A stretch of 39,787 nt of DNA, taken from Oscillospiraceae bacterium. Lineage in GTDB: Bacteria > Bacillota > Clostridia > Oscillospirales > Oscillospiraceae. The position numbers were made by a program, and so were the translations under genes. Under the pieces are notes generated by a model. The model had not been told where the DNA came from. It made no database searches and saw only the letters and a program-made list of their open reading frames with translations. Of this stretch, positions 12,071 to 14,997 are shown piece after piece (position 1 is the stretch's first letter; each line of letters opens with the position of its first letter). Location of the stretch: assembly GCA_021203885.1 (NCBI GenBank), contig JAJQAH010000077.1, positions 1 to 39,787 on the forward strand. The letters are read 5' to 3'.

Positions 12071-12277
12071 TCAGGCCGGTTCGATCGAGACGACCGTGTA
12101 GCCGATGCCGTGGATGGCGTCCCGGATCGCGTCGTCGGATACATCGCCGGAGACGACGGCGGTGTTGCTGTTCAGGTCCACGGTGGCCGTGGCACCGGGC
12201 AGCTCGTTCAGCGCGTCGGAGACGTGCTGCGCGCAGCGATCGCACATCATGCCCTCGATTACGACTTTCTTGTCCAT
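12071..12277 (-). CDS. Predicted internal in-frame product: 68-aa CopZ-like copper chaperone
   Basis: AAAGGAGG (12292-12285) 7 nt upstream of an in-frame ATG (12277-12275) opening the HMA domain. Confidence 0.5.
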   Translation of the reverse strand: MDKKVVIEGMMCDRCAQHVSDALNELPGATATVDLNSNTAVVSGDVSDDAIRDAIHGIGYTVVSIEPA

Positions 12278-14623
12278 CAGCGCTCCTCCTTTCTCCGGGC
12301 TCTCTTTCTGCCCGGAAACTTCCGTATTTTCCGCTTCGGGTTTTTCCCCTTTGAAAAGCCGCAGCCGCAGCGCGTTGGAAACCACGCAGATGGAGGACAG
12401 GCACATGGCCGCCGCCGCGAACATGGGGCTCAGCTGCCAGCCCAGCAGCGGATAGAAGACGCCCGCCGCCAGGGGGATACAGAGAATGTTATAGAAAAAG
12501 GCCCAGAACAGGTTCTGGCGGATGATCCGCATCACGGCTCTGGACAGCCGCACGGCTGTCACCGCGTCGTTCAGATCGCCTTTCATCAGGATCACGTCTG
12601 CCGACTCAATGGCGATATCCGAGCCGGCTGCGACGGCTATGCCCACATCGGCCCGCACCAGAGCGGGCGAGTCGTTGATGCCGTCGCCGATCATGGCCAC
12701 TTTGTGGCCCTCCTGCTGTGCCTGCCGAACCTGGGATTCCTTGTCGGCGGGCAGCACCTCGGCCGCCACCTGGGAAATGCCCACCTGGCGGGCGATGTAC
12801 CCGGCCGTGCGCCGGTTGTCTCCGGTCAGCATGATCACGTTCAGACCCAGTTCCCGCAGCCGCCGGACGGCCCGGATGCTGCCGGGCTTGACCGTGTCCG
12901 CCACCGCAATGATGCCGAGGGGCACGCCGTCCGCGGCGAAGTACAGCGGGGTCTTGCCCTGATCCGCCAGAGCCCGGCCCCGTTCGGCCAGATCCGACAG
13001 ATCCGCGCCCGCATCCTCCAGCATGGTCCTGCTGCCGCCCAGAAGGGACTTCCCGTCCAGGACGCCGGACACGCCCAGACCGTGGAGAGCCTGAAACTGT
13101 CCGGCTCTCGTGTATCGGATGTCCTGCTGGCCGGCGTACTCCGTGACGGCCCGGCCGAGAGGATGCTCGGACAGGGACTCCAGTGAGGCGGCCGCCGCCA
13201 GAAGATCCCGCTCGTTTGTGCCGGCGCACGGGATCACGTCGGTGACCCGGGGTTTTCCCTCGGTGACGGTGCCCGTCTTGTCCAGCACCACGGTATCGAC
13301 ACTCTGGAGAGTCTCCAGCGCCTCGGCGGATTTAAACAGCACGCCGTACTCCGCACCCCGGCCCGTTCCGGCCATGATGGCCACCGGCGTGGCCAGGCCC
13401 AGTGCGCAGGGGCAGGAGATCACCAGCACGGCGACGCCGGAAGTCAGGGCCATTTCCGCGCTGTGGCCGGTCAGCAGCCACACGGCCGCCGTAACGACGG
13501 CGATACCGATGACGATGGGCACGAACACGCCCGCGACCCGGTCCGCCAGTTTGGCGATGGGCGCCTTGGACGCGGCGGCTTCCTCCACCAGGGTGATCAT
13601 CTGATCCAGGGTGGTGTCCCCGCTGACGCGGGTGGCCCGCATGGTGAAAGAGCCCGACTTGTTGACAGAGGCCGACAGGACCTGGTCTCCGGGTCCCTTT
13701 TCCGCAGGCAGGGACTCGCCGGTCAGGGCGGATTCATCCACCGCCGAACTTCCTTCCGTGACCACCCCGTCCACGGGCACGGCCTGGCCGGGGCGCACCA
13801 GCAGGAGATCCCCGACGGCGACCTGTTCCACGGGGACGGTGACCGGACGGTCGTCCCGCAGCACGGTGGCCGTTTTCGGTGTCAGGTCGATGAGACGGGC
13901 AATGGCCTCGCCGGTCTTGCCCTTGGACCGGGTCTCCAGGTATTTGCCCAGTGTGATCAGGGTCAGGATCATGCCGGCCGATTCGAAGTACAGATCGTTG
14001 GACCATCGGGTGACGCGCTCCGCGGCGTCCGCGGCGCCGGCTGCCATCTGCCCCAGTCCGGAGGAGATCTGGAACAGGGCGACGATGCCGTAGATCACGG
14101 CGGCGGCGGAACCCATGGCGATCAGCGTGTCCATGTTGGGCCCGCCTTTGAACAGGGCCCGGAACCCCGTGCGGTAATATTTCTGATTGATGACCATGAT
14201 GGGCACGGTCAGCAGGAACTGGATCAGAGCCACGGAAAGGACGTTCTGCTCCTCGTGAAACCAGTGGGGGAGCGGCCAGCCCATCATGTGGCCCATGGCC
14301 AGATAAAAGAGGGGAACGAGAAAGCACAGGGAGGAGATAAAGCGCGCCCGCATGTTCCGGAGCTCGGCGTCCGCGGACACATAGGCCGGCACGTCTTTCG
14401 TTTTCGCTCCGGTGTCCGGCAGGGACGCGCCGTACCCCGCACTTTCCACGGCGCTGATGATCTCCCCGGCCGTCACTTCATTCTCGTTGTACTCCACCTG
14501 CATGGACCCGCCCAGCAGGTCCACCGTCACATTCGTGACGCCGGGCAGCTTGCTGACCGCTTTCTCCACATGGGAGGAACAGGCGGAACAGGACATGCCC
14601 GTGACGATAAATTTCTGTTTCAT
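12071..14623 (-). CDS. copA: Copper-translocating P-type ATPase with N- and C-terminal HMA domains
   Basis: GMSCSACSSHV, SCPCALGLATP (CPC), DKTGTVTEG, GDGINDSPAL, C-terminal GMMCDRCAQHV; start at MKQKF chosen over the GTG at 14653. Confidence 0.95.
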   Translation of the reverse strand: MKQKFIVTGMSCSACSSHVEKAVSKLPGVTNVTVDLLGGSMQVEYNENEVTAGEIISAVESAGYGASLPDTGAKTKDVPAYVSADAELRNMRARFISSLCFLVPLFYLAMGHMMGWPLPHWFHEEQNVLSVALIQFLLTVPIMVINQKYYRTGFRALFKGGPNMDTLIAMGSAAAVIYGIVALFQISSGLGQMAAGAADAAERVTRWSNDLYFESAGMILTLITLGKYLETRSKGKTGEAIARLIDLTPKTATVLRDDRPVTVPVEQVAVGDLLLVRPGQAVPVDGVVTEGSSAVDESALTGESLPAEKGPGDQVLSASVNKSGSFTMRATRVSGDTTLDQMITLVEEAAASKAPIAKLADRVAGVFVPIVIGIAVVTAAVWLLTGHSAEMALTSGVAVLVISCPCALGLATPVAIMAGTGRGAEYGVLFKSAEALETLQSVDTVVLDKTGTVTEGKPRVTDVIPCAGTNERDLLAAAASLESLSEHPLGRAVTEYAGQQDIRYTRAGQFQALHGLGVSGVLDGKSLLGGSRTMLEDAGADLSDLAERGRALADQGKTPLYFAADGVPLGIIAVADTVKPGSIRAVRRLRELGLNVIMLTGDNRRTAGYIARQVGISQVAAEVLPADKESQVRQAQQEGHKVAMIGDGINDSPALVRADVGIAVAAGSDIAIESADVILMKGDLNDAVTAVRLSRAVMRIIRQNLFWAFFYNILCIPLAAGVFYPLLGWQLSPMFAAAAMCLSSICVVSNALRLRLFKGEKPEAENTEVSGQKESPEKGGALMDKKVVIEGMMCDRCAQHVSDALNELPGATATVDLNSNTAVVSGDVSDDAIRDAIHGIGYTVVSIEPA

Positions 14624-14660
14624 AATTCCAGCAGCCCGCGGGCTTCTCCGCACCCCGCTT

Positions 14661-14921
14661 TCAGAGCAGTTTGCTGAGCAGTCCGGTCAGCTCGTCGATC
14701 TTTTCCGCCCGCTCCTCCGGCGTCTGCGCCTCGTTGACGCAGTGCTTCAGATGAGCGGTCAGGACCTCCCGGTTGGTCCGGTTTAAAACGGCGGTCGTGG
14801 CCAGAAGCTGCTGGGATATATCGATGCAGTACCGGTCCTCCTCGACCATCCGGATGATGCCGTCCACCTGTCCGCGGGCCGTCTTCAGCAGCCGCAGGAC
14901 GGTCTCACTGTCGGCCATCAT
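14661..14921 (-). CDS. csoR: CsoR family copper-sensing repressor
   Basis: 86-aa protein with RGQVDGIIRMVEEDRYC and HLKHC (Cys-His-Cys copper-site pattern); upstream of copA. Confidence 0.92.
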   Translation of the reverse strand: MMADSETVLRLLKTARGQVDGIIRMVEEDRYCIDISQQLLATTAVLNRTNREVLTAHLKHCVNEAQTPEERAEKIDELTGLLSKLL

Positions 14922-14941: not shown

Positions 14942-14956
14942 CCCCCCCCGGGGGGG
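14942..14956. promoter_or_regulatory. Candidate CsoR operator
   Basis: GC-only palindrome CCCCCCCC-GGGGGGG between promoter and csoR start. Confidence 0.7.
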
Positions 14957-14968
14957 TATTATGCTCAT

Positions 14969-14997
14969 ATTTTACAGTACGAAGAGTGTCTTGTCAA
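14969..14997 (-). promoter_or_regulatory. csoR-copA promoter
   Basis: Minus strand TTGACA, 17 nt, TAAAAT. Confidence 0.75.

Follow-up and report, generated by a model that had tools for sequence, protein, structure and literature searches.

An internal start site within a clostridial copper-pump gene, predicted to yield a free CopZ-type chaperone

THE copA LOCUS

The window, by which we mean the whole 39,787-nt stretch of DNA analysed, carries on its minus strand a copper-pump gene, copA, and directly upstream on the same strand a gene for a metal-sensing repressor of the CsoR family. The features of the gene pair are as follows.

12071..14623, minus strand: copA, open reading frame; Pfam E1-E2_ATPase, Hydrolase and two HMA domains; NCBIfam copper-translocating ATPase TIGR01511
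14432..14611, minus strand: N-terminal HMA of CopA; PF00403, E 3.8e-19
14661..14921, minus strand: CsoR/RcnR-family metal-sensing repressor gene; PF02583, E 1.3e-26
14942..14997, minus strand: promoter-like site TTGACA-17-TAAAAT, then the GC palindrome CCCCCCCGGGGGGGG; read from the sequence

The copA product is a Cu(I) P1B-type ATPase of 850 aa, counted from the ATG at 14623, which is likely to be the start rather than the GTG at 14653 given in the list of open reading frames; the stop codon is a TGA at 12073..12071. Its translation scores 583 bits against TIGR01511 (cutoff 397) and contains the CPC membrane motif (SCPCALG) expected of this ATPase type. Pfam resolves the layout into an N-terminal HMA, the ATPase core and a C-terminal HMA. 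For the repressor the top NCBIfam match is RicR, below cutoff. The palindrome (14942-14957, minus strand) lies a short way downstream from the csoR-copA −10 box and is a candidate CsoR operator.

THE INTERNAL START SITE AND ITS PREDICTED PRODUCT

Near its 3′ end copA contains a second set of start signals, in frame with the first.

12278..12349, minus strand: hydrophilic linker GEKPEAENTEVSGQKESPEKGGAL, hypervariable, with the Shine-Dalgarno (SD) inside; from ortholog comparison
12285..12292, minus strand: internal SD AAAGGAGG, 7 nt before ATG; duplex energy −11.6 kcal/mol; kept in orthologs
12275..12277, minus strand: internal start codon ATG; 208 of 224 orthologs have ATG here, and two others have GTG and an SD
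12071..12277, minus strand: internal in-frame ORF, 68-aa HMA/CopZ-like; from sequence, HMA match, AlphaFold and PDB fold match

A preliminary description, made from the window alone, had proposed that an SD ending 7 nt before an in-frame ATG in copA opens a complete 68-aa HMA domain, set off from the ATPase core by a hydrophilic linker. Each part of this structure was recovered. The minus-strand frame reads GAG AAA GGA GGA GCG CTG ATG GAC AAG AAA, so that AAAGGAGG and the ATG can be read directly, with a 7-nt spacer at 12284..12278; Pfam HMA covers residues 7-61 of the 68-codon ORF (E 1.9e-15), which shares its stop codon with copA; and the linker is present, hydrophilic and variable among orthologs. 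The 39.8-kb window has a single AAAGGAGG N4-10 ATG, against 0.20 expected by chance, so that the single instance by itself is weak evidence; it is comparison with relatives that places the site far beyond chance.

AlphaFold models the 68-aa product with a pLDDT of 94 and with the complete fold order E-H-E-E-H-E, beginning at residue 2. The top PDB fold match of this model is a free CopZ chaperone, 6ff2 (TM 0.87, rmsd 0.9), and the domain carries the CxxC of CopZ as MCDRC. The product scores 56.4 bits against NCBIfam NF047957 (cutoff 85) and 42.4 bits against NF033794 (cutoff 95), which places it outside those curated CopZ subfamilies. Fold, family and the split relatives described below together suggest that it is a CopZ-type copper chaperone.

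In the mechanism that we propose, some ribosomes on the csoR-copA mRNA would begin at the internal AAAGGAGG-N7-ATG and give the free 68-aa chaperone, while those that start upstream would produce the entire pump, which carries this HMA tethered at its C-terminal end. Pump and cytosolic chaperone would thereby both come from a single copper-induced transcript, with no stop codon between them, and the free chaperone would deliver copper to the N-terminal HMA of CopA and to the membrane entry platform. We infer the actual initiation, the protein abundance, the copper induction and the delivery of copper to CopA. The SD at copA's own ATG (14623) is far weaker than the internal one, with a duplex energy of −2.6 against −11.6 kcal/mol, so the chaperone could exceed the pump in amount.

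Internal initiation might also be real and yet give an HMA that serves mainly as a pump-bound subunit or regulator, rather than as a roaming chaperone. Phage two-polypeptide endolysins do make extra subunits by internal in-frame starts (PMC9430671), but in the split relatives of copA the same domain is a separate CopZ-like gene, and the closest structural match here is a free CopZ; we think a mainly bound role unlikely.

CONSERVATION OF THE START CODON AND SHINE-DALGARNO

We collected copA genes from 60 relatives, 301 family genomes, 249 phylum genomes and 80 genome-contig loci, among which 224 distinct genes carry a C-terminal HMA and form the survey set. The preliminary description had named loss of the SD/ATG pair, in orthologs that keep this HMA, as the outcome that would speak against it. 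The survey found the opposite: an in-frame ATG stands at the HMA start in 208 of the 224 fused genes and is preceded in 196 of those 208 by an SD of 5 nt or longer. As a mean across 152 genus-level groups, SDs of this length reach a rate of 0.934. The position of the ATG varies by no more than one codon in 197 of the 208 orthologs that bear it. As background, among 2319 internal Met codons of copA (first gene set), SDs of at least 5 nt precede 7.4% and those of at least 6 nt 1.6%. When only loci from whole-genome searches are counted, ATG is found in 136 of 145 and the SD in 130.

The two signals behave as a unit. HMAs with a start codon have an SD in 203 of 215 cases and those without in 2 of 18 (p 2e-15), so that loss of the one goes with loss of the other. 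About nine fused orthologs have lost both, and the free product would thus be dispensable in some lineages. Two orthologs (L050 and L244) have GTG in place of ATG, each with a strong SD. Five genes (L022, L080, L255, L274 and L275) have two or three C-terminal HMAs, and in these the first copy lacks a start while a later copy has ATG and SD. As a control, the second HMA (HMA2) of tandem N-terminal arrays has ATG in 0 of 18 cases. The internal SD stands at a spacing similar to that of copA's own SD. Around the internal ATG the mRNA is unstructured: the median MFE there is −1.9 kcal/mol, whereas other parts of the linker give −8.3 and the start of copA itself −3.3.

SELECTION ON NUCLEOTIDES RATHER THAN PEPTIDE

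The comparative test put forward for internal initiation was whether orthologs with the C-terminal HMA conserve the SD in excess at synonymous positions, and this excess is strong. When codons are resampled according to the usage of each gene and the peptide is left unchanged, pooled synonymous shuffling predicts 51.2 ± 4.9 SDs of at least 6 nt, where 172 are observed (z 24.5); the SD frequency at other linker codons is 2.7%. Applied to single genes the shuffling test is weak, as the peptide itself largely encodes the SD: p-values within the SD window have a median of 0.31, and the gene studied here gives 0.096. Pooled tests and tests free of ascertainment were therefore used in place of single-gene p-values.

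Orthologs encode the SD in all three codon phases (97/90/9), and according to phase the peptide differs, for example K-G-E, K-E-E or R-R. Codon choice was counted with no selection on the SD. Of 76 Gly residues at codon −4, 75 are encoded by GGA (14 expected). Lys is AAA in 65 of 66 cases where it precedes Gly (24.5 expected), and AAG in 69 of 80 where it precedes Glu or Asp (about 45 expected). These opposite Lys synonyms preserve AAAGGAG in the one phase or AAGGAGG in the other. The shuffling and codon counts take each gene as a separate case, although the genes are not independent; the tree and the genus-level figures allow for this in part. A further GGA count, 96 of 97, was discarded because it was biased through selecting on the SD.

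These results bear on the idea that a preference for K/G/E-rich peptide produces the SD-like sequence incidentally, or that this sequence is a ribosome pause site that aids folding of the last domain. The linkers are Lys/Glu-rich, and SD-induced ribosome pausing has been proposed in the literature. Yet the same nucleotides are reached from different peptides in three phases, with Lys codons that are opposite by phase; ATG or GTG is kept at start-like spacing and lost together with the SD; two orthologs start with GTG; and in tandem C-terminal HMAs it is the later copy that has the ATG and SD. We regard both versions of this idea as very improbable.

The internal SD and start codon of copA are thus conserved beyond the constraint of the peptide, as in a gene with an internal in-frame start. 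The sequence comparisons show nucleotide-level selection on these start signals in well over a hundred genera, most of them gut Clostridia. They support the earlier reading that pump and chaperone may come from one gene by internal initiation, and we hold it very likely that a selected internal start gives both full-length CopA and free CopZ.

LINKER DIVERGENCE AND ORIGIN OF THE FUSED GENE

The linker varies among orthologs from 5 to 73 aa, with a median of 28. For gene pairs at 60-75% body identity, nucleotide identity is 0.33 in the linker, which is near chance, and 0.54 in the SD zone, and 75% of these pairs keep an SD of at least 6 nt in both genes.

In split relatives (L131, L130, L169 and L173, also L117 and L127) a separate HMA ORF, itself preceded by a similar SD, begins shortly past the copA stop. 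In one of them (L131) the HMA ATG overlaps the copA stop as ATGA, with AAGGAGG within the last codons of copA. Such split copA-copZ neighbours make it likely that the arrangement studied here arose by fusion of copA and copZ through stop loss, with the start retained. On the tree, at least seven changes between fused and split forms are needed, and 21 for presence of the start.

It is extremely unlikely that the start signals are only a functionless remnant of that fusion, lingering from the old copZ after the stop codon was lost: such neighbours do make fusion the likely origin, but the linker outside the SD has gone to near-chance identity while the SD zone is less diverged, synonymous choice preserves the SD, start codon and SD are lost jointly, and the signal stands at about 93% averaged over the 152 genus-level groups.

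We also looked for other CopZ candidates. Strong separate small HMA ORFs, defined as at least 50 bits and at most 150 aa, are rare among fused relatives with the start (2 of 33) and commoner among split ones (6 of 15); a further 35 fused genomes included one with such an ORF. This contrast is supportive and no more, since small HMA-like ORFs with weaker scores turn up often elsewhere in fused genomes. As the window's genome is also 71% complete, any claim that there is no other CopZ holds only in part. Lack of another copZ was accordingly dropped as proof of the internal start, since its support is partial only.

COMPARISON WITH KNOWN SYSTEMS

Escherichia coli copA, in the work of Meydan (2017) and Drees (2017) as cited in PMC7558416 and PMC9548414, makes the chaperone CopA(Z) from its N-terminal HMA by programmed frameshifting. 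The analogy that the preliminary description drew with this system stands as to function, in that one copper-pump gene gives a pump and, here by prediction, a free HMA chaperone. It fails as to both gene end and mechanism: in E. coli, on those accounts, a frameshift leads to termination after the N-terminal HMA, whereas here in-frame initiation at an SD and ATG would release the C-terminal one.

The 68-aa HMA with its CxxC is like the CopZ/Atx1 chaperones (PDB 6ff2, 2qif and 1k0v), but it is nested in copA with a common stop and no separate gene is annotated for it. Split copA-copZ relatives share the gene order, and their HMA ORF is preceded by a similar SD; they differ in the stop codon between pump and chaperone, so their pump is without a C-terminal HMA. 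Internal in-frame starts also give phage two-polypeptide endolysins their C-terminal domain as a second protein (PMC9430671) and produce Cas11b from within cas8b (PMC11899642). The principle is the same as that proposed for copA, while the proteins and functions are unrelated. Archaeoglobus CopA likewise has a C-terminal copper site on a Cu-ATPase, but that site is described as regulatory (review PMC7558416). In our literature searches, which covered open-access papers, we found no description of a CopZ produced from the C-terminus of CopA.

IMPLICATIONS

It is probable that many Clostridia and some Spirochaetota use a selected internal start, independent of the frameshifting in E. coli, to have both a tethered and a free chaperone in each cell. 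In-frame internal initiation would then be a second evolutionary route to pump and chaperone from one gene, and many CopA genes annotated as one protein, such as that of Ruminococcus albus 7, would each hide a missed second protein. It would also help explain why an obvious copZ is absent from many gut Clostridia. With the same HMA both tethered and free in a cell, the role of the metal-binding domains of CopA could be tested with single synonymous mutants.

Among the orthologs, Ruminococcus albus 7 pRUMAL02 (L276) and Subdoligranulum variabile (L278) are named carriers of SD and ATG; the R. albus 7 copA, whose internal signals read AAGGAGG-8-ATG, follows a metal-sensing repressor gene and is annotated as a single CDS. 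In Roseburia 831b (L277), where public annotation also gives a single CDS, there is only a weak SD. The fused copA genes of Paludibacter (Bacteroidota; L039 and L040, two sequences only) retain the in-frame ATG with the SD absent, which fits the fact that Bacteroidota as a phylum do not rely on SDs.
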